Shown here piece by piece: positions 2,879-23,541 of a DNA stretch of 64,000 bases. Under the pieces are notes generated by a model. It worked only from the letters and a program-made list of their open reading frames with translations, was not told the origin of the DNA and searched no databases. Each line of letters begins with the position of its first letter. Position 1 is the first letter of the stretch. The position numbers and the translations under genes are program-made. The DNA is from an uncultured Macellibacteroides sp. (lineage in GTDB: Bacteria; Bacteroidota; Bacteroidia; Bacteroidales; Tannerellaceae), in the NCBI RefSeq assembly GCF_963667135.1, contig NZ_OY762974.1, positions 2,480,001 through 2,544,000 on the forward strand, given 5' to 3'.

Positions 2879-3439
2879 TTATTTAATTATATAAATAATG
2901 GATATGGCTGCTTTAGTAACTCCAAAATAATCTTTTGTGTCTTTTTTTACCCATTCTCCGCAGTTCACACAAACGTATTTGTCGTGATCTAAGCGTGCGT
3001 ATCCTGCACCAATTACTGCTTCCATGCTCCAGTGCGGACTTAATATCCATTGATATCCATAGGAAATACCTCCGCCCCAAAGATTGCCTTCGTAACGGTA
3101 TTTTTCCATATTGTCACTAAGGAATGAAAGTCCCCCCACATTATACGCAGCATAATGTCCATGCAGACCCAGAAAATGGCCGTTAAATTTTTCACAAAAC
3201 CAGTATCGCACCTCAGGTTGAATCCCAATGTGTTTAAACTTTCCATCTTCTCCGAAATTCCATGGATTGTAATTCCCTGAAATGTCGAGTGTAACCTTTC
3301 GGCTAAGACTCATTTCGACACCCAGGTTTATGGTGCTGGTAAGGTCGTAAAGCAGGTTGCTCTTTACTGCAAAAGTTTGTCCATATGTTGCTGCGAACGG
3401 GGCAAACAAAACTAGTAGAATGATTAAAAGTCGTTTCAT
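2879..3439 (-). CDS. DUF3575 outer-membrane beta-barrel protein
   Basis: A 186-residue protein starting at MKRLLIILLV with a clear Sec signal ending near ATYGQ. The reading frame stays open upstream to 3556, but the signal peptide marks 3439 as the start. The body has alternating aromatic and polar strands (KSNLLYDLTSTINLGVEM, VRYWFCEKFNG, GGISYGYQW) typical of a small outer-membrane beta-barrel of the DUF3575 family. It is the first gene of the fimbrial operon and lies downstream of four copies of a 15-bp repeat. In similar loci DUF3575 and DUF3868 genes stand together. A role in fimbrial anchoring is inferred only from context. Confidence 0.7.
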   Translation of the reverse strand: MKRLLIILLVLFAPFAATYGQTFAVKSNLLYDLTSTINLGVEMSLSRKVTLDISGNYNPWNFGEDGKFKHIGIQPEVRYWFCEKFNGHFLGLHGHYAAYNVGGLSFLSDNMEKYRYEGNLWGGGISYGYQWILSPHWSMEAVIGAGYARLDHDKYVCVNCGEWVKKDTKDYFGVTKAAISIIYIIK

Positions 3440-3571
3440 ATTCTTTATATTAAAATGACCTGTAAATAAATATTTTTTATCCTGGCTAAAGTAATATCTT
3501 TCATCCTCATCGATTAAATTGGACATACCACTGTAAACATGGAATATGAACAACAACTTATCATATTGAAG

Positions 3572-4284: not shown

Positions 4285-4821
4285 ATGCAGTTAGTTTGCA
4301 GTTTGGCTACGCTTGACTCGCAAGTAGCGTTCAAATCACTTTATATGGTCTATTTTGACCGTTTAATGCGATTTGTGACTTGTCATGTCGGATCCGAGCC
4401 AGTAGCAGAAGAAATCGTATCAGATACATTTTTAGCTGTATGGGAAAATAGAAAATCGCTTTTAGAGGTAACAAACTTCGATTCCTATATTTACACAATT
4501 GCCCGACATAAATCAATATCGTATTTTCGCACGAATCACATGATTAAGGTAGAAATCGATGAAACTGTTTCTGATCTTTTTTTTCAAACAGATACTACTC
4601 CAGAAGAAGACTTCATATCCAAAGAAACTGTGAATAGCTTGAATAACGCCATTAATTCGCTTCCCGATAAGTGTAAAATGGCATTTAAATTGGTGCGAGA
4701 AGATAAAATGAAATATAAGGATGCTGCTCAAGTACTGGATATTTCTGTCAAAACATTGGAGGCGCATATTACAACTGCAGTAAAAAAAATAAGAGAAGCT
4801 TTAAGTAAAGAGTTGGAGTGA
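4285..4821 (+). CDS. ECF RNA polymerase sigma factor (SusCD-linked, locus 1)
   Basis: A sigma-70 family ECF factor of 178 residues from the ATG at 4285; a TTG at 4258 would add nine residues but is a less usual start here. Region 2 is at about residues 12-75 (AFKSLYMVYFDRLMRFV, then AEEIVSDTFLAVWENR) and region 4 at about 110-170 (LPDKCKMAFKLVREDKMKYKDAAQVL, ending in a helix-turn-helix). It precedes a FecR anti-sigma gene and SusC/SusD, the standard arrangement of trans-envelope signalling in Bacteroidetes: ligand binding by SusC releases the sigma factor through FecR. An ECF-type element in front of it suggests autoregulation. Confidence 0.9.
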   Translation: MQLVCSLATLDSQVAFKSLYMVYFDRLMRFVTCHVGSEPVAEEIVSDTFLAVWENRKSLLEVTNFDSYIYTIARHKSISYFRTNHMIKVEIDETVSDLFFQTDTTPEEDFISKETVNSLNNAINSLPDKCKMAFKLVREDKMKYKDAAQVLDISVKTLEAHITTAVKKIREALSKELE

Positions 4822-4840
4822 TTCGATTATTTATTAACCA

Positions 4841-4880
4841 GACTAAGGGTTTTTTCTTTTTCGTGCGACTATACTATTAG
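4841..4880 (+). promoter_or_regulatory. ECF-type promoter element upstream of FecR-SusCD
   Basis: GACTAAGGGTTTTTTC, then CGACTATACTATTAG beginning at 4866. It matches the element at 4191 in both halves and in exact spacing. It sits 12 bp upstream of the anti-sigma start, as expected for the promoter of the FecR-SusC-SusD-oxidoreductase operon. Confidence 0.68.
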
Positions 4881-4892
4881 AACGGATAATTC

Positions 4893-5858
4893 ATGAAATA
4901 TAAAATAGATCATATAATAGCACGGGTTCTTTCCGGAGAAAGTTCATCGGAAGATATTCTTCAACTAAGTGATTGGCTTAATGCCGATCATAAAAATAAA
5001 GATGAGTTTCGGAAGTTAAAGAGCTACTGGGATGCAGAAGTTTCTTTTAGGAACTCTGTTGCGCCGGAAATAACATTGAAGAAACTACGGGATAAAATAA
5101 CTGCGGCCGAAAGAAAGAAAAAACTTAAACAACTCCTAATTGTTGGTTTACCGATTGCGGCCTGTATTTGTTTATTGATAACGGTCTCTTTTCTATTTTA
5201 CATTAATAGTAAAGTGGATCCGGTTGAATATTATACCTATATAAGTGGTAATCATAAATCCGAATTTACCTTAACTGATGGGACTAAAGTCATTTTAAAT
5301 AAAGATGGCAAATTAACTTATTCAAGTTCTTTTGGAGATAAATGCAGAACTGTTCAATTGGAAGGAGAGGCCTTCATTGAAGTAACTAAAGATTCGACAA
5401 GAGTGTTCGAGGTAAAGATGGATCAGGCTTCAATTAAGGTTTTAGGTACTAAATTTAATGTAAAAGCGAATCCACATGAGAATTCGATCGAGGCAACTTT
5501 GGTGGAAGGATCAATCCGTTTTGAAAGTGAAACGCAAAAGGTTTTACTAAATCCAAATCAGCAGCTTAAATATAATAAACAGACGGCGAAAATAGACATT
5601 AATAGTGTTGATACTGAGTTTTATACATCATGGAAATATGATGTTAGCAAATACAAATCATTATCTCTTAAAAATCTTGTTTGTGATTTAGAAAAAAAAT
5701 ATAAAGTGAAAATTGAAATAATAAACAGGAAACTTGAAGATGTTATTGTATCTGGGTCCTTTAGTAATGACCAATCAATTGAAGATGCATTGGAAGTAAT
5801 ATCCCGGAGCATACCATTTGAATGGGACAAAAAAGGGAATACCTATTATGTTCGTTAA
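4893..5858 (+). CDS. FecR-family anti-sigma factor (locus 1)
   Basis: A 321-residue inner-membrane anti-sigma factor. Cytoplasmic residues 1-78 should bind the sigma factor. A single membrane helix spans about residues 80-104 (LLIVGLPIAACICLLITVSF). The periplasmic part has a FecR domain at about 115-215 (FTLTDGTKVILNKDGKLTY, VLGTKFNVKA) and a C-terminal DUF4974-like domain at about 250-320. It relays the signal from the STN domain of the downstream SusC. It lies 71 bp after the sigma gene with its own ECF-type element between, and is separated from susC by a leader with a hairpin at 5919-5949. Confidence 0.92.
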   Translation: MKYKIDHIIARVLSGESSSEDILQLSDWLNADHKNKDEFRKLKSYWDAEVSFRNSVAPEITLKKLRDKITAAERKKKLKQLLIVGLPIAACICLLITVSFLFYINSKVDPVEYYTYISGNHKSEFTLTDGTKVILNKDGKLTYSSSFGDKCRTVQLEGEAFIEVTKDSTRVFEVKMDQASIKVLGTKFNVKANPHENSIEATLVEGSIRFESETQKVLLNPNQQLKYNKQTAKIDINSVDTEFYTSWKYDVSKYKSLSLKNLVCDLEKKYKVKIEIINRKLEDVIVSGSFSNDQSIEDALEVISRSIPFEWDKKGNTYYVR

Positions 5859-5918
5859 TAGAAACTCATAATTAAAAGTATAGCCTATGCAAAGAAATTG
5901 TTAACCTAAATTGTATGA

Positions 5919-5949
5919 AAAAACCGACAATGAGTCATCGCCGGTTTTT
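5919..5949 (+). terminator. Hairpin with U tract between fecR and susC
   Basis: AAAAACCG pairs perfectly with CGGTTTTT across a 15-nt loop, and the second arm ends in a T run. The stem is short and AT-rich, so it could be a weak terminator or attenuator in the leader of susC. AATTGTTAACCT occurs on both sides of it (5896-5907 and 6013-6024). Confidence 0.45.
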
Positions 5950-6040
5950 ACCTTTCAAAGATTTAATTACTGCTTCAGGCATCTTCGTCGGCAAACATTG
6001 TTGCTTGAAGCGAATTGTTAACCTTTTACAAAACAAAAAT

Positions 6041-9000
6041 ATGGAAAATGTTTCGTATTACAAGTCCTTTCTGACAAAGGATTTGAAAAAAATCTTTCAA
6101 ATTATGAGAATCACGTTTTTTCTTCTTTTTGTAACGTTTTTTGAGGCGTTTGCAGTCGAAACTTCTTATTCGCAGATTACAAAGGTTTCGGTTGAAGCAA
6201 ATCAACTCAATTTAAGCGAACTATTTACTTTGATTGAAAAGCAGAGTGAGTTTTTGTTTTTTTATGTAGATGCAGATGTTCGAAATGTTAACGTGAACAT
6301 TAAAGCCCGGAATACCCAAATAGACGCAATCCTTTCTCAGGCGTTGCAGGGTACAGATCTTTCTTATACGATTACGAATAGGAATATAAATATTTTCAGG
6401 AAAACAGATTCATCGCAACAACATTTAAAGCGGGTTACAGGAAATGTAACAGATTCAAGAGGTGAATCTATTATTGGGGCGAATGTGGTAGTAAAGGGTA
6501 CGGTAAACGGCACCACTACTGATATGGATGGAAATTATAGTATTGAGGTAAGTTCATCCTCAGTGCTTCAGGTTTCTTACATAGGATATCATACTTTGGA
6601 AATTCTTGTTGGAGATAAATCTAAAATTGATATTAAATTGGTTGATGATGCTTTGAATTTGAGCGAAGTAGTAGTTGTTGGTTATGGAACACAAAAGAAG
6701 GCTAATCTTACAGGATCAGTAGCTTCCGTTTCGGCCAAGGATATGGGTAAACGCCAGGTTGGCCAGACTTCATTAGCCTTACAGGGACTTGTTCCGGGTG
6801 TGGCCATTACTCAGAGGAGCGGACAGCCTGGAGCTGATGGTGGAACTATCAGTATCCGCGGTAAAACAACGTTGGGGAATAATGATGCATTGATTCTTGT
6901 TGATGGGGTTGAAATGGGGATAAATAATATTGATGCCTCCTTAATCGAATCTGTTTCGGTATTAAAAGACGCAGCATCTTCAGCCATTTACGGTTCTCGT
7001 GCTGCAAATGGAGTTATTCTTATCACTACAAAACGAGCAGAAGCCGATAAATTTTCTGTTTCATACAGTGGTTATCTTGGATGGCAAAGCGCTATTGACT
7101 TGCCAAACATGGTAGGAGCTTTAGATCACATGCGTATGACTAACCAAGCTTATACCAACATTGGAAAGTCTCCCTTATATTCAGATGCTTATCTACAGGA
7201 ATATGAGGAGAATATGACAACAAATCCAGATAGATATCCAGATACAGACTGGATTGGAGAAACGTTGACCAATAATGGGTTGATGCAAAATCATTTTGTA
7301 ACATTAAGCGGAGGATCCAAGCGAATCCGTACTTCTGCAAATATTGGGTATCTGGACCAAAATGGTATTATAGAAAATTCTAATTTCAAACGTTATACTT
7401 TTCGTATGAATACGGATATGGATATTTCAGATCAATTTTCAGCACGGATTGACGCTCATGTAGGTATGACAAAGAGATTGTCTCCTTCCAGAGGAGATGC
7501 ATTTCATTGGATGAGTAGAATACCTGCTATTCAGGCAGGTCGTTTAACAACCGGACAGTGGGGGGAAGGTTGGAATGGAGATAACCCAATCGCTTTCACA
7601 AATGATGGCGGATTGCAAACCGTTAATAGTCCATCGGCAGTACTTAACTTTGCATTAACATATAAACCTACTGATTGGCTGACTGTTCAAGGAAATTATT
7701 CTCCCAATTATTATGAAACACACAATACATCATTTAGCAAGATGGTGCAGACTTACAAGTATGACGGAACACCTTATTACAGAGCTCCTCAAAAAAGTAC
7801 GTTAAGCGATCAGTCAGATAGAAGTCTAAGAAATTTACTAACAGCATCTATTACATTTGATAAAACATATGGTAATCATGGGATAAAGGCTATGGCTGGC
7901 TATCAACAAGATGATTTCCGAAATGACGGACATAGCGGATACAGGGAAAATTTTGCATTTCCTGATTATCCGGTTTTGAGTGCAGGAGGCGAGGATAATC
8001 AAAAAGCATATGGCTGGGCTTCCGAATGGGCACTGCAATCTCTTTTCGGTCGTGTTAATTATGATTACAAAGAAAAGTATCTTTTTGAAGCTAATATGCG
8101 TTACGACGGTTCTTCTAAATTTGCCGATGGTCATAAATGGGGTGTATTTCCATCATTTTCAGCTGGTTGGAGAATTTCAGAAGAGTCATTCTGGCAACCT
8201 GTTAAAGGAATCGTAGATAATTTAAAAATTAGAGGTTCCTGGGGGCAATTAGGAAATCAAAACATCGGGGATAATTATCCGTTTTCGTCGGATGTAAACT
8301 TAGGTATTAAATATATATTTGATAAAGCAGTCACATCAGGAGCCGGTATTACAAGTCTGGCTAATTCTAAAATTACTTGGGAAACAACCTCAATTACTGA
8401 TATTGGATTAGATGCGACAATCTTTGGAAAATTAAATTTGACAGCCGATTATTTCTATAAAGTTACCGATGATATTCTTTTGAAATTAAATGTGCCTTTG
8501 ATTATAGGTATGGATGCACCTCAGCAGAATGCAGGTAAAACTGAAAACCGTGGTTGGGATTTAGGAATTAATTACGCTGATAAGTTTGGTGACTTCAACT
8601 ATAAAGTGGCTTTAAATATTTCAGATGTAAAAAATAAAATACTTGATTTAAAAGGAATTAATGAAACCGGACTAACTGTGTTTCGTGAAGGAGAGGAAAT
8701 GTATTCGATATACGGATTAGAGTCTACAGGCTATATTCAACCGGAGGATTACGACGCAAATGGGAAATATCTTTACGCAACTCAATATGGTAGTTTTGGT
8801 CCCGGCGATATAAAATACAGGGATCAGCTAACGATAGATACAGATGGGGATGGTATCGCTGATAAGGCAGATGGAGTAATAAATACTTCTGACAGAACTA
8901 TTCTGGGAGGAACTATTCCTCGGTATACTTTTGGCATGTCTTTGTATGGAGAATATAAAGGGATTGATCTTAGTTTGTTACTTCAGGGCGTAGGTAAAGC

Positions 9001-9388
9001 AAATGGATATCTTAACGGACAGGGTATCCAAACATTTGTGGAAGGTGGATCGGTTCAGGAACAACATAAAGATAATTGGACAGTCGATAATAGAGATGCG
9101 AAGTTCCCCAGATTGGCATTTAATGAAACCAATAATATGCAAAATTCTTCTTTTTGGATGAAGAATGCCGCTTATCTGCGATTGAAAAATCTGCAATTGG
9201 GATATACTTTTCCTAAGAAATTGCTAAGTAAGACACCTATATCTCATCTTCGTTTTTATGTAAGTGGAGACAACTTGCTTACGCTTGATAGTTTCTGGGA
9301 TGGCTTTGATGTGGAAGCTCCGGTTGGCAATGGGGGATATTATCCTCAATTGAAAACAATAAGTTTTGGAATGGATGTTAGATTTTAA
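6041..9388 (+). CDS. SusC/RagA TonB-dependent transporter with STN domain (locus 1)
   Basis: An outer-membrane TonB-dependent transporter of about 1115 residues. The frame is open from 5915, but the start MENVSYYKS at 6041 is preferred because the upstream part overlaps the hairpin at 5919-5949. The order is: signal region (MRITFFLLFVTFFEAFA), STN signalling domain that contacts FecR, carboxypeptidase-like domain (VTGNVTDSRGESIIGANV), plug with the SusC signature (EVVVVGYGTQKKANLTGS), then the beta-barrel ending in an aromatic residue (FGMDVRF). It should import a large ligand together with the SusD lipoprotein next to it. The downstream flavoenzymes suggest a substrate handled by oxidation; the ligand itself cannot be told. 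Confidence 0.93.
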   Translation: MENVSYYKSFLTKDLKKIFQIMRITFFLLFVTFFEAFAVETSYSQITKVSVEANQLNLSELFTLIEKQSEFLFFYVDADVRNVNVNIKARNTQIDAILSQALQGTDLSYTITNRNINIFRKTDSSQQHLKRVTGNVTDSRGESIIGANVVVKGTVNGTTTDMDGNYSIEVSSSSVLQVSYIGYHTLEILVGDKSKIDIKLVDDALNLSEVVVVGYGTQKKANLTGSVASVSAKDMGKRQVGQTSLALQGLVPGVAITQRSGQPGADGGTISIRGKTTLGNNDALILVDGVEMGINNIDASLIESVSVLKDAASSAIYGSRAANGVILITTKRAEADKFSVSYSGYLGWQSAIDLPNMVGALDHMRMTNQAYTNIGKSPLYSDAYLQEYEENMTTNPDRYPDTDWIGETLTNNGLMQNHFVTLSGGSKRIRTSANIGYLDQNGIIENSNFKRYTFRMNTDMDISDQFSARIDAHVGMTKRLSPSRGDAFHWMSRIPAIQAGRLTTGQWGEGWNGDNPIAFTNDGGLQTVNSPSAVLNFALTYKPTDWLTVQGNYSPNYYETHNTSFSKMVQTYKYDGTPYYRAPQKSTLSDQSDRSLRNLLTASITFDKTYGNHGIKAMAGYQQDDFRNDGHSGYRENFAFPDYPVLSAGGEDNQKAYGWASEWALQSLFGRVNYDYKEKYLFEANMRYDGSSKFADGHKWGVFPSFSAGWRISEESFWQPVKGIVDNLKIRGSWGQLGNQNIGDNYPFSSDVNLGIKYIFDKAVTSGAGITSLANSKITWETTSITDIGLDATIFGKLNLTADYFYKVTDDILLKLNVPLIIGMDAPQQNAGKTENRGWDLGINYADKFGDFNYKVALNISDVKNKILDLKGINETGLTVFREGEEMYSIYGLESTGYIQPEDYDANGKYLYATQYGSFGPGDIKYRDQLTIDTDGDGIADKADGVINTSDRTILGGTIPRYTFGMSLYGEYKGIDLSLLLQGVGKANGYLNGQGIQTFVEGGSVQEQHKDNWTVDNRDAKFPRLAFNETNNMQNSSFWMKNAAYLRLKNLQLGYTFPKKLLSKTPISHLRFYVSGDNLLTLDSFWDGFDVEAPVGNGGYYPQLKTISFGMDVRF

Positions 9389-9414
9389 TTGTTCACCTGA
9401 TAATATTGAATACA

Positions 9415-11094
9415 ATGAAAAGATTAATAATATATCTTTCTGCAATTATAATAGGAATGACTTCTTGTGAAGGGTATTTGGATAAATTACCATTAAATAC
9501 ACCATCAGATCAAACATTTTTGGCAAATGAAACAGAGATGAAAATGGCTCTTGCCGGCTGCTATTCTGCTTTATGGCTTAACCATGAATCAATGACATTC
9601 TTTTTAGCATTGGATGAAGCGTCAGATATTGGATATGATAGAAATACGAATGCACTCCAGTCTTTAGCTCAAGGGTCGGCTGATGCAACGAATGGTACTG
9701 CTCAAAGTTATTGGGCGGGTTTTTATAGTGGAATTGCAAAATGCAACTATTTGATTGAGAATATGAGCAGAGGAGAAGCAGCCGTAAATGCTGATACATA
9801 TGCTCAGATTAAAGCAGAGGCAAAGTTTTTAAGAGCTTTATATTATTCGTATTTGATTGAATTATATGGAGATGTTCCTTTGGTAAAAGAGGTGCTAACA
9901 CTGGATAATTCTAATCAGCCAAGAACTCCAAAATCTGAAGTTGTCGATTTTATTTTGCAAGAGCTAACGGAAGCTGCCGCAGTTCTTCCTGCCACAAATA
10001 ATCCAACATCGGGAAAGGCCACAAAGGGGGCTGCACTGGCTATTAAAGCAAGAACTGCACTTTATAATGAGCGTTGGGCTGATGCTATTTCTGCATCCTC
10101 GGATGTTATGGCGATGGAAGGTCTCCAATATAAGTTAGAAGATAACTACGCTACGTTATTCCGAAATGAGGGTCAGACTTCTAAAGAAGTCGTTTTTTCT
10201 GTTCAGTATTTGCTTGGAAATCAGGTCCATTCTTTGTATCGCTTGTTTGGATCCCGCAATGCATTGGCTCATACGAATAAAAAACCGGCTTACCAGTTGG
10301 CTGATTCATGGGAATGCACCGATGGATTGCCAATCGATAAATCTCCATTATTTAATCCTAAAGACCCATTTAAGAACAGAGACCCCCGGTTGGGTTATAC
10401 GCTTGCTGTACCAGGTTCAGTATTTTTGGGATTTCAGTTTGAAACACATGGAGACAGTACTATGTGCTGGAATTATCTTACCAATAAAAGGGTGAACAAT
10501 CTGGAGGCTACACACGCTTATGCCACTTTTACAGGAATTTGCTGGAGAAAATATGCTAATGTAGAAGATCGTCTGGCTATAAATGATTGTGAAATGAATA
10601 CAATTCTTATTCGTTACGCTGAGGTTTTGTTGACATATGCAGAAGCAAAAATAAAAGCAGGTCAAATAGATGCATCCGTTCTAGCAGCTATCAATAAGGT
10701 TAGAAGTCGTCCATCTGTAAACATGCCTCCAATTACTACTACAGATCCGACGGAATTATTTTATGCCGTATGTAGGGAACGAAAATATGAACTTTCGGGA
10801 GAAGGGCTTCGTTTATTTGATATCCGTCGCTGGAAGATTGCAGAGGTTGTTATGAATCAACCGTTGTTGGGTCGGATGAAAAAATCGTATCCAGATAAAG
10901 CGCCCCGTATAGATAATTACGGAAACTCCTTCTACGAAGGTATACCTATTGCTTCGCAAGGAGAATCTGCAGACTTTAAAATGCGTATCGTCGATAGGAG
11001 AACATTTAATGTTAACAGAGACTATTTATGGCCAATACCGTATATTGAAAGACAGACAAATCCATCTTTGGTACAGAATCCTAATTATGAATAA
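9415..11094 (+). CDS. SusD/RagB-family surface glycan-binding lipoprotein (locus 1)
   Basis: A 559-residue SusD homologue that forms the lid over the SusC barrel. The start is the ATG at 9415; a TTG three codons upstream is less likely. A lipoprotein signal ends at Cys18 (IIIGMTSC). SusD-type features include the TPR-rich N-terminal half (AEAKFLRALYYSYLIELYGDVPLV), the family signature ILIRYAEVLLTYAEAK and the C-terminal REREY-like region (CRERKYELSGEGLRLFDIRRW) with the ending NPNYE. The gene lies 26 bp after susC. A hairpin at 11103-11133 follows, which may lower expression of the oxidoreductases relative to susCD. Confidence 0.93.
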   Translation: MKRLIIYLSAIIIGMTSCEGYLDKLPLNTPSDQTFLANETEMKMALAGCYSALWLNHESMTFFLALDEASDIGYDRNTNALQSLAQGSADATNGTAQSYWAGFYSGIAKCNYLIENMSRGEAAVNADTYAQIKAEAKFLRALYYSYLIELYGDVPLVKEVLTLDNSNQPRTPKSEVVDFILQELTEAAAVLPATNNPTSGKATKGAALAIKARTALYNERWADAISASSDVMAMEGLQYKLEDNYATLFRNEGQTSKEVVFSVQYLLGNQVHSLYRLFGSRNALAHTNKKPAYQLADSWECTDGLPIDKSPLFNPKDPFKNRDPRLGYTLAVPGSVFLGFQFETHGDSTMCWNYLTNKRVNNLEATHAYATFTGICWRKYANVEDRLAINDCEMNTILIRYAEVLLTYAEAKIKAGQIDASVLAAINKVRSRPSVNMPPITTTDPTELFYAVCRERKYELSGEGLRLFDIRRWKIAEVVMNQPLLGRMKKSYPDKAPRIDNYGNSFYEGIPIASQGESADFKMRIVDRRTFNVNRDYLWPIPYIERQTNPSLVQNPNYE

Positions 11095-11102
11095 TTAATA
11101 GA

Positions 11103-11133
11103 TTTGGGGAGAGAGGCTTTATTTCTCCCCAAA
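11103..11133 (+). terminator. Hairpin between susD and the first oxidoreductase
   Basis: TTTGGGGAGA pairs with TCTCCCCAAA (10 bp, 11-nt loop). The arm ends in AAACTATTTAAA, without a T tract, so it is more likely a partial terminator or an mRNA-processing/stability element inside the operon. Confidence 0.5.
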
Positions 11134-11147
11134 CTATTTAAAATACG

Positions 11148-13145
11148 ATGAAACTCATGAAACAATATATAATATTATTTATTACATTCTTATCTTTAAC
11201 CTCTTTTCAGGGAAAAGATTCGGGAAAACAAAAAGACGTTGATGTCTGTGTTTATGGAGGAACGGCATCGGGAGTTATTGCTGCCTATTCGGCCAAAATG
11301 ATGGGTAAGTCTGTTATATTAATTGAACCTGGAAAATATCTGGGAGGTATGACTACAGGGGGATTAGGTTCTACAGATATTGGTAATAAATTTGCAGTAA
11401 CTGGCTTGTCCAGACTTTTTTACAGGAGAATAGGAGCTCATTATAATAAATTCGAACAATGGACATTTCCTCCAAGTGTTGCAACTACACAAATAATGAA
11501 GTTTGTAAAAGATGCTGACCTTGAAGTCATATATACTTATCGAATTACCAATGCAGATGTTCGAGATAAAAAGATTGAAACGATTACACTAGAAAATTCG
11601 GAACGACCCAAAACAGAACCTTTGCTGAAAATTAAAGCAAAACAATTTATCGACTGTACTTATGAAGGGGATTTGATGGCAAAGTCGGGCGTTTCTTATT
11701 TTGTAGGAAGAGAATCGAATGAAGAATATGAGGAGACATTGAATGGAGTTCAAATGTCTGTTATGCACCAGTTCCCGGATGGGGTAGATCCATATATTAT
11801 TGAAGGAAACTCTGCAAGCGGCCTTTGCTGGGGAATTAATAATAACTCATTAAAGGAAAGAGGTCAAGGAGATAAACTAATACAAGCCTATAATTTTAGG
11901 CTTTGCCTTACAAACAATAAAGAAAATCAACGTGCTTTTGAAAAGCCTAAGAACTATGATTCCTCTAAATATGAATTATTAGCTCGGGCAATAAAAAAAA
12001 TGACGCTGAACATTGATAACTTTTTATTGATTAATTGGGGAACAATGCCTGATAATAAGTATGACGTGAATAACAGAGGACCTTTGTCGACCGATATGAT
12101 TGGCATGAATTACGAGTACCCGGAAGGTGACTATGAAACACGGGATAAAATCTGGAAGCAACACGTTGATTATACAAAAGGATTGCTTTACTTTTTAACC
12201 CACGATAAAAAAGTCCCAGAAGAATTAAGAACTCAGGTTGGAGAGTTTGGCTGGGCAAAAGATGAATTTGTAGATAACGATAATTTTCCGACACAGTTGT
12301 ATGTGCGTGAAGCCCGACGATTAAACGGTGAATATGTAATGACTCAAAAAAATTGTCAGGGAGAAGAAACTGTTGGTGATGCCATCGGGATGGCAGCTTA
12401 TGGGATGGACTCTCATAATTGTCAGCGTATTGTTGTAAACGGAATGGTGAAAAATGAAGGAGATGTTGAATATCATGGATTTCCACCGTATCCAATATCT
12501 TATAAGAGTATTACACCCAAAAAAGAAGAATGTGTGAATTTATTGGTCCCAGTTTGTGTTTCTTCAACTCATATCGCGTTCGGGTCAATTCGTATGGAAC
12601 CTGTATTCATGGTCCTCGGACAATCCGCTGCTGTTGCTGCTGTGTTAGCTATTGATGAAAATAAAAATGTTCAGGATATAAATATAACCAAGTTACGTAA
12701 AATTTTAAGAGAAAACCCCTATCTTGATGGCTCAACACTTGAAGTAATGGTTGATGAAGCTGATATAGATAAAATCAGTAGATCAGGAAGTTGGCGTAAG
12801 AGCTATGGCGCGCATTACAAAAACAGCTATTTATATTCTGATAACAAAAAAAATGATTGTTCTTTTACTTTCTTTCCTGTAATAAAAAGTGCTGGAAAAT
12901 ATGAAGCACTTTTTTATTGCACAGCTATTGAAGAACTAAGTATGACGGATGAAATGGTTCTGGATATTCAGCATGCCAATGGAAATAGCCAGATTAAGAT
13001 AAAGCCAAAACAGATGAAAGGTTCGTGGGTTAGTCTTGGAACCTATTTTTTCGAGAAGGGTAATAAGTCGGCTGTCGCAATTAATGGAGGTCTCACGAAG
13101 GGCCCATTATTTGCAGATGCAATTCTATTAGTCCCATCAAAATAA
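11148..13145 (+). CDS. Exported FAD-dependent oxidoreductase with golvesin-like C-terminal domain
   Basis: A 665-residue flavoprotein of the FAD_oxidored type. After a Sec-type signal (residues 1-22) the FAD fingerprint is intact: VCVYGGTASGVIAAYSAK followed by LIEPGKYLGGMTTGGLG. A second conserved segment reads FIDCTYEGDLMAKSGV, and a C-terminal FAD contact region has SSTHIAFGSIRMEPVFMVLGQSAA. Residues about 545-665 form an extra beta-sandwich (SAGKYEALFYC, GSWVSLGTYFF) like golvesin/xanthan-lyase-associated carbohydrate-binding domains, also found in the amidase at 35311. An ATG at 11157 is an alternative start. It is the first of three flavoenzymes after susD. Substrate unknown; oxidation of a sugar-containing ligand is an inference. 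Confidence 0.85.
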   Translation: MKLMKQYIILFITFLSLTSFQGKDSGKQKDVDVCVYGGTASGVIAAYSAKMMGKSVILIEPGKYLGGMTTGGLGSTDIGNKFAVTGLSRLFYRRIGAHYNKFEQWTFPPSVATTQIMKFVKDADLEVIYTYRITNADVRDKKIETITLENSERPKTEPLLKIKAKQFIDCTYEGDLMAKSGVSYFVGRESNEEYEETLNGVQMSVMHQFPDGVDPYIIEGNSASGLCWGINNNSLKERGQGDKLIQAYNFRLCLTNNKENQRAFEKPKNYDSSKYELLARAIKKMTLNIDNFLLINWGTMPDNKYDVNNRGPLSTDMIGMNYEYPEGDYETRDKIWKQHVDYTKGLLYFLTHDKKVPEELRTQVGEFGWAKDEFVDNDNFPTQLYVREARRLNGEYVMTQKNCQGEETVGDAIGMAAYGMDSHNCQRIVVNGMVKNEGDVEYHGFPPYPISYKSITPKKEECVNLLVPVCVSSTHIAFGSIRMEPVFMVLGQSAAVAAVLAIDENKNVQDINITKLRKILRENPYLDGSTLEVMVDEADIDKISRSGSWRKSYGAHYKNSYLYSDNKKNDCSFTFFPVIKSAGKYEALFYCTAIEELSMTDEMVLDIQHANGNSQIKIKPKQMKGSWVSLGTYFFEKGNKSAVAINGGLTKGPLFADAILLVPSK

Positions 13146-13177
13146 CGAATTATTATTTTAGATTAAATACTGATACT

Positions 13178-16100
13178 ATGATTAACAGGAGATCTTTTAT
13201 TAAGGGTATAACAGCAGGAACTGCGTTAGCCACATTGGGGAATGTACCTGAGGCAAAAGCTGCCATGAAAACTGTTGTGCCGGATGCGAATTTTTGTTTC
13301 GAAAGCGCGAGAAAAATACCAATTATCACCGATGCCGATATCGTTGTTATTGGCGGTAGTTCGAGGGCGGTAGCGGCAGCAGTTGCAGCAGCCAGATTGG
13401 GGAGTAAAGTTTTTCTGGTCGCATCCCTGCCTTATCTTGGAGACGATATTTGCGGATCGTTCCTGTATCACCGTAAAAAAGACGAACATCCGGAAACGGC
13501 TATTGCTCGAAAAGTATTTCTTCAGATGGAAACACCTACACCTCTGTATGTGAAAAGTGTTCTGGAAAATGAGTTGATTGATAATCAGATAGATTTTCTT
13601 TACAGCAGTTATGTAACGAATGTTTTAACCGACAGCAATGGGAAGAAGTCCGGAGTGGTTATTGCAAACCGTTCGGGTCGTCAGGCCATTCGATGTAAAG
13701 CACTTATCGATGCCACGCATACCGCTTCTGTTGCCCGCATGTGTGGTGTGAGTTTTTCTCCCGTTAAAGAAGGAAAGCAAAAATTCCATTTCACGGTTGT
13801 AGGCAATACAATAAAAGAAGCCCCGGAAATCGCCCGGGCCGAGGTTCTTCCTTATACATTTAAGAACAACGGGAAAGAATTTGCTGTAACAAGCTATACG
13901 TTTGAGTATTCCCTGAAGGATAATTCATATGCCTCTCTTATGGAGATAGAACAGTTCATCAGGGATAAAACCTGGGATCCGGATCAGGGAGACAGTTCAG
14001 ATTTATTGTGGTATATCCCCGATTATTCGATCTTCGCCAGAAAACCATACGTTGAACCATTTTCTGCTGTACGAGCTATTCCTTATGAGGCATTTCTCCC
14101 AAAAGAATCAGATAATGTATGGGTACTTGGTCCTTGTGCCGGCCTTGAACGTGATGTAGCCGAAATACTTATGCGTCCTGTTCACGCCATGGAGATGGGA
14201 GATATTTTGGGCGAGTATGTAGCAGGGCTAATGGCTGACTGTTCGCTCGCTGATCAGGTGCGAGTAGTTCAGCCGAATGTAAATGCTTCCGATTATGGAC
14301 GAATTGGTGAAACTCTAAAATCTCTGCGTCCGTCCGTTGTAAAGGGATATGCAGAATCTACCCGGGGAGCTCTGCCTGTTTTAGGAACATACGATGTTGT
14401 GGTTATGGGAGGAGGAACAGCCGGAGCTCCTGCTGGAATTGCTTCTGCCCGCCACGGAGCAAAAACGTTGTTGCTTGAATATCTTCATGGCTTAGGCGGA
14501 ATTGGAACTTTAGGCTTAATAGGGCGTTATTGGGATGGTTACCGCGACGGCTTTTCGTCCGAAATAGATAAAGGCGTCCGTGCCATGGCCCCAGAAGATC
14601 ATCCGCGGCAACATAAAGATTGGAAAGAAGCATACAGTGCTGACTGGAAAATGGAATGGTACAGGCGTGAGCTAAGAAAAGCAGGAGGAGAAATATGGTT
14701 TGGTGTGCTTGGGTGTGGGGCATTGATAGAAAATAATGTTGTAAAAGGAATTATTGTTGCCACTCCTGAAGGACGTGGAGTTATTCTTGCAAACACGGTG
14801 ATAGATAGTTCCGGAAGTGCTGATATCGCGATTGCAGCAGGGGCTTCGTTCGATTACACTGGAAAGGAGACCATTGCTGTGCAGGGGGCAGGATTATCAA
14901 AAATTGCTCCGACAGATTATTACAATAATAACGACTGGGCTTTTATCGACGATTCAGATATTATGGATGTTTCTCGCATTTACATTCAGGCAAAAGTAAA
15001 ACATGCAGGTGAATATGATATAGTAAAAATACCTCAGACAAGAGAAAGAAGACGTGTAACAGGCGAACACATTATATCCGTTTACGATGTGCTGAATCAT
15101 CGTCGGTATTCGGATACAATCTCGTATCACAAAAGTTCGTTTGATACACATGGAATGATTATAGATCCCTATTTTATATTGAATCCTCCAATGACACGGC
15201 ATGCTATTTATGATGCAGATGTACCTCTGCGCAGTTTGTTGCCAAAAGGTCTTGACGGCATTCTCACTACAGGTTTAGGAGCCAGTGCACATCGGGATGC
15301 CATGCCTGTTATCCGAATGCAATCTTGTTTGCAGAATCAGGGTTATGCCGTAGGTTACCTTGCCGCATTGTGTGCAAAGGAAAAGAAGCCGATACGGAAA
15401 ATAGATATGAAAAAGGTTCAGCGTTATCTGGTAGAGATTGGAAATCTTCCTTCGCGGGTACTTAAGGATACAGATTTTAAAGGATTTGGAAGTAAGGAAA
15501 TGTTGCAGGCTGCAAAAAGTATTCCGGAAAATTACAAAGGACTGGAGATCCTTTTAACTGATAAAAAAAGATGCCTGGAACTTTTAAATAAGCAAATAGA
15601 GCTTACAACTTCAGCGGACGAACGGGTAATGCTCGCTTCGGTATTATGTATACTTGGAGAGAGTAAATACGCTTCGGTTTTGGAGGATAAGATTAAAGAA
15701 TATACCAAATGGGACGAAGGATGGCATTATACAGGAATGGGACAGTTTGGAATGAGTGCCAGCCGATTAGATGCACTCCTTATGGCGTTGGGTAATGCAA
15801 AGCAGGAATTATCACTACCTGTTATAATTGAAAAGGCAGCTTTATTGAAGCCAGAAGACTATTTTTCTCATTTCAGAGCCGTAGCAATGGCTTTTGAATC
15901 GATAGGGAGTAAGGAAGCTGTTCCAACATTGACGACAATGCTCACTATGCCAGGTGTGCGGTATCATTCTATTTCTTCATTCCATGATGCCCGAAAGAGT
16001 GTAGTTCCGGATGCCGATGATGTAAGTACCCGCAATAAATCACTGAAAGAATTGCATATTGCCCGGGCATTGTATCTCTGTGGTGACAAGGATTCGTTGG

Positions 16101-16183
16101 GAGCGAAGGTGTTGCAAAAGTATGCCGAAGGCCTTCAAGGACATTATGCCCGCTATGCTTCCGAATTGTTAGCCAGCAAATAA
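13178..16183 (+). CDS. Tandem FAD-oxidoreductase with Tat signal and C-terminal helical repeats
   Basis: A 1001-residue protein with two Rossmann-type flavoprotein modules. The N-terminus has a twin-arginine motif (NRRSFIKG) followed by a hydrophobic stretch and AKA, so Tat export of a folded cofactor-bearing protein is likely. Module 1 (from about residue 53, DIVVIGGSSRAVAAAVAA) lacks the third glycine and the acidic residue that normally ends the fingerprint (KVFLVAS), so it may not bind FAD normally. Module 2 (from about residue 405, YDVVVMGGGTAGAPAGIASA, then LLLEYLHGLGGIGTLG) is canonical. Residues about 790-1001 are helical and HEAT-like (LASVLCILGESKYASVLEDKI). It starts 32 bp after the first flavoenzyme and 11 bp before the third. 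Substrate unknown. Confidence 0.82.
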   Translation: MINRRSFIKGITAGTALATLGNVPEAKAAMKTVVPDANFCFESARKIPIITDADIVVIGGSSRAVAAAVAAARLGSKVFLVASLPYLGDDICGSFLYHRKKDEHPETAIARKVFLQMETPTPLYVKSVLENELIDNQIDFLYSSYVTNVLTDSNGKKSGVVIANRSGRQAIRCKALIDATHTASVARMCGVSFSPVKEGKQKFHFTVVGNTIKEAPEIARAEVLPYTFKNNGKEFAVTSYTFEYSLKDNSYASLMEIEQFIRDKTWDPDQGDSSDLLWYIPDYSIFARKPYVEPFSAVRAIPYEAFLPKESDNVWVLGPCAGLERDVAEILMRPVHAMEMGDILGEYVAGLMADCSLADQVRVVQPNVNASDYGRIGETLKSLRPSVVKGYAESTRGALPVLGTYDVVVMGGGTAGAPAGIASARHGAKTLLLEYLHGLGGIGTLGLIGRYWDGYRDGFSSEIDKGVRAMAPEDHPRQHKDWKEAYSADWKMEWYRRELRKAGGEIWFGVLGCGALIENNVVKGIIVATPEGRGVILANTVIDSSGSADIAIAAGASFDYTGKETIAVQGAGLSKIAPTDYYNNNDWAFIDDSDIMDVSRIYIQAKVKHAGEYDIVKIPQTRERRRVTGEHIISVYDVLNHRRYSDTISYHKSSFDTHGMIIDPYFILNPPMTRHAIYDADVPLRSLLPKGLDGILTTGLGASAHRDAMPVIRMQSCLQNQGYAVGYLAALCAKEKKPIRKIDMKKVQRYLVEIGNLPSRVLKDTDFKGFGSKEMLQAAKSIPENYKGLEILLTDKKRCLELLNKQIELTTSADERVMLASVLCILGESKYASVLEDKIKEYTKWDEGWHYTGMGQFGMSASRLDALLMALGNAKQELSLPVIIEKAALLKPEDYFSHFRAVAMAFESIGSKEAVPTLTTMLTMPGVRYHSISSFHDARKSVVPDADDVSTRNKSLKELHIARALYLCGDKDSLGAKVLQKYAEGLQGHYARYASELLASK

Positions 16184-16194
16184 GAATCAAAATT

Positions 16195-18057
16195 ATGAAA
16201 AAAAGGCTATTTATTGTACTGCTTTTATTTTGTGTTAGTTTTTCTTTTGCACAAAATTCATACGATCTGGTGATAGTGGGAGGAAATCCCGGAGGAATCA
16301 TGGCGGCTATATCGGCAGCCAGAATGGGAAAGAGTTCAGTTATTTTGGAAAGGACAAGTCACATAGGAGGGTTGCCTGCTAACGGATTAGGGGCAACAGA
16401 CATAGCTACTCGTGCTGCAACCAGCGGATTGTTCGGCGAGTTTGTTAGTCGGATAAAACAATATTATGTGGAAACTTATGGTGAGTCATCGGAGCAGGTG
16501 AAAATGTGCAGCGACGGTTACCATTTCGAGCCTTCGGTTGCAGCAAAAGTGTTCGATGCTATGCTGGAGCAATACAAAGATAAGATTACAATACGGGTAA
16601 TGCGACAGTTCGATTCCGACACAAAGCATATTGTTTTGCGGAACGATCGCATCGAACAGATCCGGATTACAAACCGGCTTAGCGGGCAAATGGAAAGTTA
16701 CACCGGAAAGATTTTTTTGGATGCTACCTACGAAGGCGATTTGGCTGCAGCGGCAGGTGTTCCGTTTCGTGTGGGTCGCGAAGGTAAAGATGAATTTAAC
16801 GAGCCGGGCGCAGGTAAAGTCTATAAATATTGGGGAGGTATTGAAGGAGAAGGGACTACATACCAGAATGATAATTCTGTTCAAGCCTACAATTATAGGA
16901 TGTGTCTGACAAACAATCCTGCAAATCGGATTACTATTTCAAAACCTGCTAACTATAACCGTAATGATTATGTTTCTCTGATTGAGGATGTATGGACAGG
17001 CCGTACAACTTTGGCAGATATGCTGAAAGTAACTCCGGAGATGATGGAATCTAACCGCAAACATATTGCAGCGGGTAACAGGCCCCAAGTTCCTGGAGAT
17101 GTTTGGGGAATAGATAAGATTACTAATATTGTGCATGTTCCCAATCAGAAGACGGATGCCAACAATCAGCACCGGGCATTTATATCGACAGACCTGCCCG
17201 AAGAGAACTGGCCATGGCCAACGGCTGGGTGGGAGTGGCGAGATCGGTACGCGCAACGTTTAAGAGAATACACTTTAGGTCTTTTCTGGTTTGCTCAGAA
17301 TGATAAAGAACTACCTGCCCATTTTCGTAAAGCTGCTTTGGAGTGGGGGCTAGCTAAAGATGAATATACAGATAATCAAAATTTCCCCCGTCAGGTGTAT
17401 GTTCGTGAAGGACGACGTTTCGAAGGAATTAATTTCTTTACCGCAAATGATGCATTGCCCGTAGTTCCCGGCGGCAGACCTCCTTTGCATGAAACTAGTA
17501 TCACGGCAAGTCATTATGCCTTGGATTCTCATGCTGTGCTAAAACGGGAACCTAACAGAGTGCATCTGGATGGGTTTATCAGTTATCCTACTGCCGTGTA
17601 TACAGTTCCATATGGCGTAATTGTTCCAAAGCAAGTTGATAATTTGCTTTTACCTGTACCTGTTTCCGGTTCGCATATTGGATTCTCCACCTTACGTATG
17701 GAGCCTTGTTGGATGGCACTGGGACAAGCCGCAGGTGTCGCCGCAGCTTTGGCGATCGACGATCAGGTAAAAGTCCAGCGTGTAGATATATCCAAAATGC
17801 AGTCGGCCCTTATTAATCAAAAGTCAACGCTTATTTATTTTAAAGATGTTCCTTATACATATCCAGCATTTCCAGTGGTGCAGTTTATGGGATTAAAAGG
17901 GTATTTGCCTGAGTGGAATGCGCGACTTCATGATGCGGTGGATGACGAAACACTAAAACAATGGAGCGCCTTGAGCGGGTATAGACTAGAAGCTCAGGTT
18001 GGGAGAAGTACCCGTCTTGAGGTTCTAACCAACTTGTTTAAACAAATAAAACCGTAA
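16195..18057 (+). CDS. Exported FAD-dependent oxidoreductase (third of the cluster)
   Basis: A 620-residue FAD_oxidored-type flavoprotein with a Sec signal ending near FSFAQ. The fingerprint is intact: YDLVIVGGNPGGIMAAISAA with ILERTSHIGGLPANGLG. It shares with the 11148 protein the segments FLDATYEGDLAAAAGV, NYRMCLTNNPANR, NFPRQVYVREGRRFEG and SGSHIGFSTLRMEPCWMALGQAAG, so the two are paralogues, but it lacks the golvesin-like domain. It is last in the operon and is followed by a strong hairpin terminator at 18068-18109. The Sec signal implies periplasmic or surface action, and the cofactor would have to be loaded after export. Confidence 0.85.
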   Translation: MKKRLFIVLLLFCVSFSFAQNSYDLVIVGGNPGGIMAAISAARMGKSSVILERTSHIGGLPANGLGATDIATRAATSGLFGEFVSRIKQYYVETYGESSEQVKMCSDGYHFEPSVAAKVFDAMLEQYKDKITIRVMRQFDSDTKHIVLRNDRIEQIRITNRLSGQMESYTGKIFLDATYEGDLAAAAGVPFRVGREGKDEFNEPGAGKVYKYWGGIEGEGTTYQNDNSVQAYNYRMCLTNNPANRITISKPANYNRNDYVSLIEDVWTGRTTLADMLKVTPEMMESNRKHIAAGNRPQVPGDVWGIDKITNIVHVPNQKTDANNQHRAFISTDLPEENWPWPTAGWEWRDRYAQRLREYTLGLFWFAQNDKELPAHFRKAALEWGLAKDEYTDNQNFPRQVYVREGRRFEGINFFTANDALPVVPGGRPPLHETSITASHYALDSHAVLKREPNRVHLDGFISYPTAVYTVPYGVIVPKQVDNLLLPVPVSGSHIGFSTLRMEPCWMALGQAAGVAAALAIDDQVKVQRVDISKMQSALINQKSTLIYFKDVPYTYPAFPVVQFMGLKGYLPEWNARLHDAVDDETLKQWSALSGYRLEAQVGRSTRLEVLTNLFKQIKP

Positions 18058-18149: not shown

Positions 18150-19994
18150 TTATTCCACTGTAACCGATTTAGCCAGATTACGAGGTTGATCCACATCTTT
18201 GCCTTTGCAAACGGCTATATGGTATGCCATTAGCTGCAAAGGGATGGTGGTGATCAGCGGGTCGAGGCATTCCGTAGTTGCAGGAAGTTCGATACACATA
18301 TCTGCTAATTTAGAGATTACCTCGTCTCCCTCGGATACAAAAGCAATAACTTTTCCTTTGCGGGCCTTGATTTCCTGTATATTACTCAGAATCTTTTCGT
18401 ACATGCCATTGTGAGTGGCAATAACTACTACCGGCATTTCTTCGTCTATAAGAGCGATTGGTCCATGCTTCATTTCTGCGGCCGGATACCCTTCGGCATG
18501 AATGTAAGAGATTTCCTTTAGTTTCAAGGCACCTTCAAGAGCAACCGGATAACTGTAACCCCGTCCCAGATAGATAAAGTTGTGCGCATAGGTGAATGTC
18601 TTTGCTATATCGGCAATCTGAGTGTTCGTACTGATAGCTTTAGCCATCTTGTCTGGTATGCGCTGAAGTTCGCTTACCGTACTTAAAAACTCTTCTTCAC
18701 TGATGGATTTCTTTTCGTGAGCCAACGTTAGCGCCAGCATGGCCAGTACAGTTACCTGACCTGTAAAAGCTTTGGTTGAAGCCACACCAATTTCCGGACC
18801 CACGTGTATGTAAGAACCTGTATGTGTTGCCCGGGGAATGGATGAACCTACCGAATTACAGATACCGTAGATAAAAGCTCCCCTACTTCGTGCCAATTCA
18901 ATCGCCGCAAGTGTATCGGCTGTCTCACCGGACTGAGAGATGGTTATAACAACATCATTTTCGTCAATTACGGGATCTCTGTAGCGGAACTCCGACGCAT
19001 ATTCTACTTCTACCGGTATGCGGCAAAAACTTTCTATAAGGTGTTTACCGATAAGACCGGCGTGCCAGGAGGTACCGCAAGCCACAATGATAAACCGTTT
19101 GGCTTTGAGTAACTTTTCTTTATGGTCGATCACAGCCGACAAAACCACATTGGTTCCTTCCACATTGATTCTTCCTCGCATGCAGTCGCGGATGCAGTTA
19201 GGTTGTTCGAAGATTTCCTTTAGCATAAAGTGGGGATAGCCTCCTTTTTCCAACTGTCCGATATTAAGGGCTACTGTCTGTACTTCGGGAGTTACTGAAA
19301 CGTTGTGAATATTCACGACCTTCAGTTTTTCTCCACAACGCATCAAGGCAATCTCTTCGTCTTCCAGGTAAACAACCTGGTCGGTATATTCGACGATGGG
19401 AGTTGCATCCGAAGCAAGGAAGAATTCGTTTTCGCCGATACCTACCACAAGCGGACTACTTTTGCGTGCTGCAATAATCTCGTCTGGATGTTCTTTGTCC
19501 AATACAGCAATGGCATATGCGCCAATAACCTCACGAAGAGCTAACTGCACTGCAGTAAGTAAATCCAGTTCTTTGGATACCTTTATGTATTCAATAAGTT
19601 GCACCAACACTTCCGTATCCGTACTGCTTTTAAAGGAGTATCCCTTTTGTTGCAACCGGTCTTTAAGTACCGCGTAGTTCTCAATAATTCCATTGTGAAT
19701 CAACGCAATCTTTTCGGAAGACGAGTAGTGGGGGTGAGCATTAGCCTGACAAGGCTCTCCGTGCGTTGCCCAGCGTGTATGAGCAATACCAATTGTACCC
19801 GAAATATCTTTTTGTGAAATATATGCTTCCAGCTCGGACACCTTTCCTTTAGCCTTATAAACATTTAATTCAAGGGCTTTATTTATAATAGCAACACCGG
19901 AACTGTCATATCCACGGTATTCAAGTCGTTTCAATCCTTTGATTAGAATTGGGTATGCCTCACGCATCCCAATGTAGCCGACGATTCCACACAT
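18150..19994 (-). CDS. glmS: Glutamine--fructose-6-phosphate aminotransferase (isomerising)
   Basis: A 614-residue cytosolic enzyme making glucosamine-6-phosphate from fructose-6-phosphate and glutamine, the first step toward UDP-GlcNAc. It begins MCGIVGYIG, with Cys2 as the glutaminase nucleophile after Met removal; the glutaminase domain covers about 2-220 (RWATHGEP, HNGIIENY). Two SIS sugar-isomerase domains follow (ACGTSWHAGLIGK, TISQSGETADT; LGRGYSYPVALEGALKLKE, HAEGYPAAEMKHGPIAL), and the end KSVTVE is canonical. Length is normal. A -7-like box (TATCTTTG) is at 20027-20034. It is convergent with the flavoenzyme operon and probably has no functional tie to it. Its product pool overlaps with that fed by the downstream MurNAc salvage genes. 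Confidence 0.98.
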   Translation of the reverse strand: MCGIVGYIGMREAYPILIKGLKRLEYRGYDSSGVAIINKALELNVYKAKGKVSELEAYISQKDISGTIGIAHTRWATHGEPCQANAHPHYSSSEKIALIHNGIIENYAVLKDRLQQKGYSFKSSTDTEVLVQLIEYIKVSKELDLLTAVQLALREVIGAYAIAVLDKEHPDEIIAARKSSPLVVGIGENEFFLASDATPIVEYTDQVVYLEDEEIALMRCGEKLKVVNIHNVSVTPEVQTVALNIGQLEKGGYPHFMLKEIFEQPNCIRDCMRGRINVEGTNVVLSAVIDHKEKLLKAKRFIIVACGTSWHAGLIGKHLIESFCRIPVEVEYASEFRYRDPVIDENDVVITISQSGETADTLAAIELARSRGAFIYGICNSVGSSIPRATHTGSYIHVGPEIGVASTKAFTGQVTVLAMLALTLAHEKKSISEEEFLSTVSELQRIPDKMAKAISTNTQIADIAKTFTYAHNFIYLGRGYSYPVALEGALKLKEISYIHAEGYPAAEMKHGPIALIDEEMPVVVIATHNGMYEKILSNIQEIKARKGKVIAFVSEGDEVISKLADMCIELPATTECLDPLITTIPLQLMAYHIAVCKGKDVDQPRNLAKSVTVE

Positions 19995-21263: not shown

Positions 21264-21269
21264 CCTGCG

Positions 21270-21977: not shown

Positions 21978-22019
21978 CTATAAAAGAATTGTTTCGTACT
22001 AATTAATAAAGAAGAGTAA

Positions 22020-23054: not shown

Positions 23055-23105
23055 TAATGTCCGTTTTTCTGACAGACTAATAGTTTAATTAATTAAAAAT
23101 GGATT

Positions 23106-23525: not shown

Positions 23526-23541
23526 ATACATATATTAAATT

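Follow-up and report, generated by a model that had tools for sequence, protein, structure and literature searches.

A SusCD locus with three predicted exported PF12831 flavoproteins in an uncultured Macellibacteroides sp.: conservation, enzyme anatomy and possible carbohydrate-directed function

The 64,000-nucleotide stretch of an uncultured Macellibacteroides sp. genome analysed here (hereafter the window; bases 2480001-2544000 of the single 4.46 Mb contig, NZ_OY762974.1) carries at positions 4285-18057 a SusCD locus in which an outer-membrane transporter pair, SusC and SusD, is followed by three flavin adenine dinucleotide (FAD)-type flavoproteins of the Pfam family PF12831, designated FAD1, FAD2 and FAD3, and this set, recurring as it does in other genomes, is a conserved unit. 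The reading preferred here, to which we would give a probability of about 0.5, is that of a conserved operon in which SusCD is coupled to a payload of flavoenzymes acting on a small carbohydrate or glycoside. The locus comprises seven plus-strand genes (open reading frame (ORF) list, Pfam and NCBIfam), and both the order sigma, FecR, SusC, SusD, three flavoproteins and the lengths of the latter (665, 1001 and 620 amino acids, aa) agree with the first-pass annotation of this DNA, made from the sequence alone:

4285..4821, plus strand: extracytoplasmic function (ECF)-type sigma factor, 178 aa (Pfam Sigma70_r2, Sigma70_r4_2)
4893..5858, plus strand: FecR-type anti-sigma factor, 321 aa (Pfam FecR, FecR_C)
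5915..9388, plus strand: SusC-type TonB-dependent transporter (TIGR04056, 967 bits; Pfam Plug and TonB barrel)
9406..11094, plus strand: SusD-type lipoprotein (Pfam SusD_RagB, SusD-like_3)
11148..13145, plus strand: FAD1, exported PF12831 flavoprotein, 665 aa (PF12831 and C-terminal Golvesin_C)
12744..13133, plus strand: Golvesin_C domain of FAD1 (Pfam; sequence match to the C-terminal end of the xanthan lyase 6f2p from Paenibacillus)
13178..16183, plus strand: FAD2, exported double flavoprotein of the twin-arginine translocation (Tat) type, 1001 aa (PF12831 in three stretches; TIGR01409)
13337..14347, plus strand: N-terminal module of FAD2 (PF12831 profile 1-167 only; a variant FAD motif, the last Gly mostly Ala)
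14384..15457, plus strand: C-terminal module of FAD2 (PF12831 profile 1-214 and 285-416; homologous to FAD1)
15470..16180, plus strand: all-helical tail of FAD2 (HEAT-like, our own label; DSSP of the AlphaFold model)
16195..18057, plus strand: FAD3, exported PF12831 flavoprotein, 620 aa (PF12831 E 4.9e-88)

No match to a hydrolase, lyase, esterase or sulfatase family was found for any of the seven proteins (Pfam for all seven, NCBIfam for five, with no CAZy-specific library), just as the first-pass annotation had claimed, and an origin of the arrangement by chance or mis-annotation is ruled out by the long intact ORFs and by a gene order that is kept in another genus. Identical gene order is seen in Parabacteroides acidifaciens (locus L032; SusC 75, SusD 80, FAD1 74, FAD2 64, FAD3 73 and FecR 49% identity), which, like P. 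chinchillae, shares the family of the host genome and differs from it in genus. Homologues of the window SusD at E<=1e-100 were found in 5 of the 393 genomes of the order (the whole-genome SusD and FAD1 searches gave scores to no more than three candidates in any one genome), and FAD1 follows SusD directly in four of the five (window, L032, L153, L154), while next to the fifth homologue, 43% identical, one gene intervenes before a PF12831 protein. The intervening gene, itself unscanned, is one that we take to resemble a solute symporter. Widening the SusD search to the phylum (E<=1e-130) returned 2 of 395 genomes, neither of them additional to those found before.

Seen from the enzyme side, FAD2 is present at E<=1e-50 in 10 of the 393 genomes of the order, and the best 80 of 161 FAD2 relatives, representing 79 distinct loci with titles such as Parabacteroides, Tannerella, Massilibacteroides, Proteiniphilum, Prolixibacteraceae and Mariniphaga, among others, were annotated together with the window (80 loci). 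Taking as a run the same-strand genes with gaps below 400 bases, a definition under which operon status is not proven, SusC and/or SusD stand within the FAD2 run in 33 of the 80 loci, the window counted, and in 27 of the 44 loci (window excluded) that have at least 7 kb upstream; at least two PF12831-like genes share the run in 42 of the 80. The full order SusC-SusD-FAD1-FAD2-FAD3 occurs in the window, L041, L042 (with a short FAD1-like gene of 463 aa), L045, L052, L073 and L105, and one to three FAD1-type genes accompany a CstA-family gene in L080, L082, L092 and L094. FAD1, found at E<=1e-100 in 32 of the 393 genomes, has SusC/SusD in a same-direction run in 6 of 19 loci (L153, L154, L156, L157, L159, L169), a count from which the separate sigma-FecR-SusCD set downstream of FAD1 in L170 was left out; in L034, L035 and L038 FAD1-FAD2 pairs occur with SusCD not in view. 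The relatives' ORFs were predicted with a simple caller, which may favour antisense ORFs (L157, where FAD1 and GH3 were affected, is an example), and in L154 (3357-7777) SusC is split by two opposite-strand ORFs, by eye a transposase-like insertion, with FAD1 and FAD3 downstream remaining open. Co-occurrence elsewhere, on which the first-pass annotation had made its proposal depend, was thereby borne out in P. acidifaciens, in 33 of the 80 FAD2 loci and, with the one intervening gene, in all five SusD homologues.

The host genome itself has 15 PF12831 matches, the full-length ones falling into four loci (window, L027, L028, L029), three of which lie downstream of SusCD (the window, L028 and, with one gene between, L029; L027 does not), and given 53 SusD matches in 4.46 Mb the chance of such a three-of-four linkage would be about 1e-5 to 1e-4 by our own arithmetic, with the gene number of ~3700 estimated. 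The two additional SusCD pairs with PF12831 flavoproteins behind them are situated at L028:1683-10809 and L029:8908-18419, which brings the occurrences of the arrangement in this genome to at least three. These two pairs, together with the double-module build of FAD2 described below, go beyond the first-pass annotation.

Within the conserved set, receptors and enzymes recombine. Pairwise identities correlate closely for SusC-SusD (rho 0.93), hardly at all for SusC-FAD1 (0.05) and SusD-FAD1 (0.07), and to intermediate degrees for SusC-FAD2 (0.44), SusD-FAD2 (0.31), FAD1-FAD2 (0.18) and FAD2-FAD3 (0.52), these values being computed on non-independent pairs and given without a significance test. 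Single loci point the same way: L041 is close to the window in its enzymes (FAD1 74, FAD2 66, FAD3 73%) yet distant in SusD (36%), whereas L086 is closer in its receptors (SusC 58, SusD 63%) than in FAD1 (50%) and FAD2 (47%). The weak FAD1-FAD2 correlation indicates that the enzymes recombine among themselves too, and a strict receptor-enzyme co-evolution was not found in the identity correlations.

All three enzymes lie far above the curated PF12831 cut-off of 27 (371.9, 228.3 and 296.7 bits for FAD1, FAD2 and FAD3, respectively). FAD1 consists of PF12831 (residues 32-520, E 6.9e-111) followed by Golvesin_C (533-662; both Pfam), and FAD3, 33% identical to it, is a single PF12831 module; FAD2 has two such modules and the helical tail, with the second-half family motifs being present in the C-module alone. 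Alignment of FAD1 with the FAD2 C-module by hhalign (probability 99.2, E 1.9e-19) pairs REARR with RERRR, D-S-H with D-T-H and RMEP with RMQS. The arginines and glutamate of REARR as well as D421 and H423 are invariant across 39 FAD1/FAD3 sequences, and R622-R626 (with E623), D656 and H658 across 53 FAD2 sequences, so that the Arg-rich and D-[S/T]-H motifs may plausibly form the active site. The strict GxGxxG motif is found in 53/53 FAD2 C-modules, 0/53 N-modules and 0/39 FAD1/FAD3 sequences; if G, S, T, N or A is accepted at the position of the middle Gly, these figures become 53/53, 16/53 and 30/39, and with the last Gly also allowed to be Ala 53/53, 52/53 and 39/39. The notion that the FAD2 N-module has lost its FAD motif was dropped, as FAD1 and FAD3, under equal patterns, are without the strict motif too.

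FAD_binding_2 (cut-off 20.4) matches over only the first 36 profile positions in FAD2 (23.3 bits) and the first 50 in FAD3 (19.5 bits). Sequence searches of solved structures listed for the most part other flavoproteins, matched in their FAD-binding region, or else the Golvesin_C domain (6f2p). These matches bear on the very unlikely alternative that the flavoproteins are respiratory reductases acting on an imported organic electron acceptor, comparable to the periplasmic fumarate or urocanate reductases, for which one could cite flavocytochrome c3, complex II and urocanate reductase among the fold matches of the AlphaFold models (pLDDT, the predicted local distance difference test, 82.9 for FAD1 and 91.4 for FAD2) and flavocytochrome c3 among the profile matches. 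The profile matches, however, span barely beyond the FAD-binding region, the fold matches have a TM-score of <=0.32, and no haem- or flavin mononucleotide (FMN)-binding domain is seen in the seven locus proteins or in the neighbour families listed (25 of 59).

As to the location of the enzymes, the first-pass annotation had counted one Tat and two Sec signals. A Tat leader on FAD2 is upheld by TIGR01409 (18.8 bits, above the cut-off of 16.7; Pfam TAT_signal, at 19.6, is below its cut-off of 22.7) and TatC is encoded by the host genome, whereas the leaders of FAD1 and FAD3 are judged to be Sec-type by eye only. The Tat pattern is fitted by 48 of the 53 FAD2 sequences, the five exceptions being L042 and L066 (Tat-like by eye), L102 (lipoprotein-type leader) and L074 and L077 (no leader). 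Among the 39 FAD1/FAD3 sequences there are 12 that agree with a narrow lipoprotein pattern, one of them possibly spuriously, and 2 that agree with the Tat pattern, one sequence fitting both; some others have a Cys slightly beyond the narrow lipoprotein pattern, such a Cys being absent from the window FAD1. The leaders speak against a cytosolic location in Bacteroidota, the leaderless L074 and L077 bearing Clostridiaceae and Eubacteriales titles.

What the flavoenzymes might act on is suggested by the company they keep. The 33 SusCD-FAD2 runs hold 59 extra proteins of at least 150 aa, 36 of which were viewed singly and the others through the family list or similarity; of the 59 families to which they belong, the 25 listed include CstA (6), sulfatase (4), DUF4959 (4), DUF4998 (3), sugar transporter, DUF4434, GlcNAc 2-epimerase, ROK, AXE1 and GDSL (2 each) and GH92 (1), and other extra genes are of the housekeeping kind or encode an integrase, a DNA methylase or a peptidase. 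A glycoside hydrolase (GH), esterase, GDSL or sulfatase gene is present in six of the 33 runs (L046, L076, L091, L095, L105, L107), and the depolymerase-free type of locus proposed in the first-pass annotation therefore stands for the window and not for every related run. ROK, GlcNAc 2-epimerase-family, DUF4434 and sugar transporter genes are near the SusCD-FAD2 sets of L059 and L109; L103 has FAD2 with Gfo/Idh and PfkB, and L153 SusCD-FAD1 with Gfo/Idh and an enolase-superfamily gene, Gfo/Idh genes being indicated by similarity also in L104 and L111. GH78 occurs in L051, L090 and L164, GH97 in L090, GH3 between SusD and FAD1 in L157, and fucosidase-family and sulfatase-like genes downstream of FAD1-FAD3 in L154. 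Around the FAD1 of L165 there are D-lyxose isomerase, PfkB and mannitol dehydrogenase genes, with GH2, FGGY kinase and sulfatase genes on the opposite strand (L167 is similar), and in the planctomycetotal L116 FAD2 adjoins TIM-barrel isomerase, PIG-L, PfkB, DUF4432 and mannitol dehydrogenase genes, L102 and L114 being similar.

Taken together, the recognisable neighbour enzymes favour a leaning towards carbohydrates, a question that CstA does not decide, and it is from these neighbourhoods that we infer a carbohydrate as the probable substrate. The carbohydrate ligand assumed in the first-pass annotation accordingly gains from the many carbohydrate-related neighbours in other genomes and gains nothing from structure comparison, which indicates no substrate. 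Two separate observations can be added here: a PIG-L deacetylase adjoins the FAD2 relatives of the planctomycetotal L102, L114, L115 and L116, and the wider sugar-catabolic cluster of L102, L114 and L116 includes a 303-309 aa protein that has no Pfam match in L116. A family of ~823 aa also recurs near PF12831 flavoproteins (L029:10776-13244, L090:1075-3543, L100:4170-6653), matching no Pfam family in L029 and a CBM35-like one in L090 (23.7 against a cut-off of 23), and is possibly a new glycan-active protein.

Under the preferred, carbohydrate-directed reading, the sigma/anti-sigma switch would govern the SusCD transporter pair, which would deliver a small carbohydrate or glycoside to the exported flavoenzymes; FAD1, FAD3 and the C-half of FAD2 would, as far as their family allows one to tell, oxidise one of its hydroxyl carbons, either in the periplasm or on the cell surface, while the N-half of FAD2 probably has a structural role or holds a second flavin. 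The keto-sugar might then be cleaved by elimination or by another enzyme of the cell or, alternatively, cross the inner membrane by way of a carrier; in relatives, genes of the CstA type or for sugar transporters of the major facilitator superfamily adjoin the cassette. The oxidative attack on the ligand put forward in the first-pass annotation is, in this form, plausible. Other genes of the keto-sugar kind in the host genome, namely the PF06439 and Gluconate_2-dh3 genes given below, count in favour of the preferred reading.

Several observations weigh against such a reading: SusC/SusD are absent from the FAD2 run in 47 of the 80 loci (partly through contig ends) and from the runs of the remaining FAD1 loci of the 19; Foldseek searches with the FAD1 and FAD2 AlphaFold models gave, within the best 50 rows per search, generic flavoprotein matches and no substrate hint; we know of no tested PF12831 enzyme of such a type; no cytochrome, quinone or nicotinamide adenine dinucleotide (NAD) partner is found by Pfam among the seven proteins of the locus; and the commonest extra neighbour of FAD2 is a (short) CstA-family gene, seen in ten loci (L046, L080, L082, L083, L087, L092, L094, L098, L100, L110), six of them SusCD runs, CstA being what we take to be a pyruvate/peptide carrier. 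The last point is what one would expect if SusCD imported peptides or organic acids, as RagAB does, with the flavoenzymes deaminating or oxidising them and CstA carrying the product inward; however, most of the remaining neighbours that can be recognised are carbohydrate genes, and one M14 peptidase was seen (in L069; none among the seven window proteins by Pfam). A non-carbohydrate nutrient is considered quite unlikely.

The missing electron acceptor leads to another alternative, namely redox-neutral catalysis in which enzyme-bound FAD would withdraw a hydride from its sugar substrate and give it back once the resulting keto-sugar had been cleaved or epimerised, with no need for an external acceptor, a borrowing role that NAD plays in GH4, GH109 and GH188. 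The proteins would then be glycan-cleaving enzymes that depend on flavin. Such a mechanism fits the gene content equally well, because Pfam shows neither an acceptor nor a cytochrome nor an NAD enzyme among the seven proteins of the locus; moreover, with one glycoside hydrolase (GH92, L095) seen among the extra genes of the 33 SusCD-FAD2 runs (25 of 59 families listed), the processor of the ligand may be something else, and the prevalence of the Tat pattern in FAD2 relatives is expected of cofactor-loaded export. On the other hand, the FAD1 and FAD3 leaders are Sec-type and the cleaving enzymes may lie elsewhere in the genome, and as we know of no flavin-dependent glycosidase, redox-neutral catalysis is ranked second and considered unlikely. 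A bolder version, in which exchangeable SusCD pairs would bring different glycosides to one cassette that opens glycosidic bonds by flavin chemistry, possibly redox-neutral and without a hydrolase, FAD2 being the founder of a fused double-flavoprotein class acting on glycans, strikes us as doubtful at present.

With regard to known systems, the locus resembles the polysaccharide utilisation loci of Bacteroidota in its adjacent SusC and SusD, its sigma/FecR switch and the exported enzymes directly downstream, and differs from them in having no match to a carbohydrate-active enzyme (CAZyme) (Pfam for seven proteins, NCBIfam for five), its enzymes being three PF12831 flavoproteins. SusCD pairs without CAZymes have been described before: 36 of them are reported from rumen genomes in a paper that, in the part available, also cites earlier studies and calls such pairs common, no flavoenzyme payload being named and "FAD" being absent from its main text (PMC6784887). 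In Maribacter forsetii the SusCD pair P177_RS04595/RS04600 is, according to the available part of the source, a laminarin-expressed transporter with no same-direction CAZyme and with an FAD-dependent oxidoreductase nearby, which is not followed up there and, its family not being given, is likened to the present locus by description alone (PMC11345257). A single paper is listed under PF12831, and it concerns Brucella flavoproteins; FAD2 departs from that family in that two copies are fused in it and a helical tail follows. Open-access full-text searches (subscription papers and preprints being outside their scope) returned no report of SusCD-PF12831 loci; SusCD without CAZymes is already known, and the literature searched yielded no instance of a conserved payload of flavoenzymes.

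A further comparison concerns the 3-keto-glycoside pathway, which, as reportedly described for gut bacteria by Nasseri et al. in 2024, employs Gfo/Idh/MocA or GMC dehydrogenases together with DUF1080 proteins. The proposed oxidise-then-cleave logic is alike and the host does have 15 PF06439 domain matches in ~11 open frames elsewhere in its genome, but the FAD enzymes of the locus come from another family and no Gfo/Idh/MocA, GMC or DUF1080 gene is found in the locus (Pfam). Assignment to the NAD-type 3-keto pathway, with its Gfo/Idh/MocA or GMC enzyme and DUF1080 partner, was rejected on that account, and so was a GMC glucoside 3-dehydrogenase, the single Gluconate_2-dh3 (PF13618) gene of the genome lying outside the locus. 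Fumarate/urocanate-type reductases were set aside as well, a full FAD_binding_2 match with a haem or FMN partner not being found by Pfam among the seven proteins. DUF1080 proteins are treated, in the part of the source available, in PMC9007349.

Some details of the locus and its surroundings remain to be given. SusC probably starts at 6041 rather than 5915, because the P. acidifaciens orthologue begins MENVSYY, and its STN-like signalling stretch scores 27.5 bits, slightly below the Pfam cut-off of 28.4. The flanking genes are on the opposite strand: a DUF3575 gene (2879-3556) and a DUF3868 gene upstream, and a GATase/SIS (glmS-type) gene (18150-19994) downstream. Further on, 20832-24510 holds a cluster with an SBF-family transporter and an LMWPc-family protein, presumably an arsenic resistance cassette. 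Window positions 25000-48166 contain a sigma factor (minus strand), FecR, SusC, SusD, a NamZ exo-N-acetylmuramidase, a transporter and an amidase-like protein that has a Golvesin_C domain as FAD1 does, followed by kinase and SIS-type genes by eye, and look like a peptidoglycan/N-acetylmuramic acid (MurNAc) SusCD locus.

SusCD loci are usually read via their CAZymes, and those like the present one count as orphans. Should the carbohydrate-directed reading be true, a flavin-based route to carbohydrate use would be added for Bacteroidota, and exported PF12831 proteins would receive a first function, which in turn raises the question of where the electrons go; in the bolder version given above, the hydrolase-free flavin cassette would represent a distinct nutrient-use strategy of this phylum.

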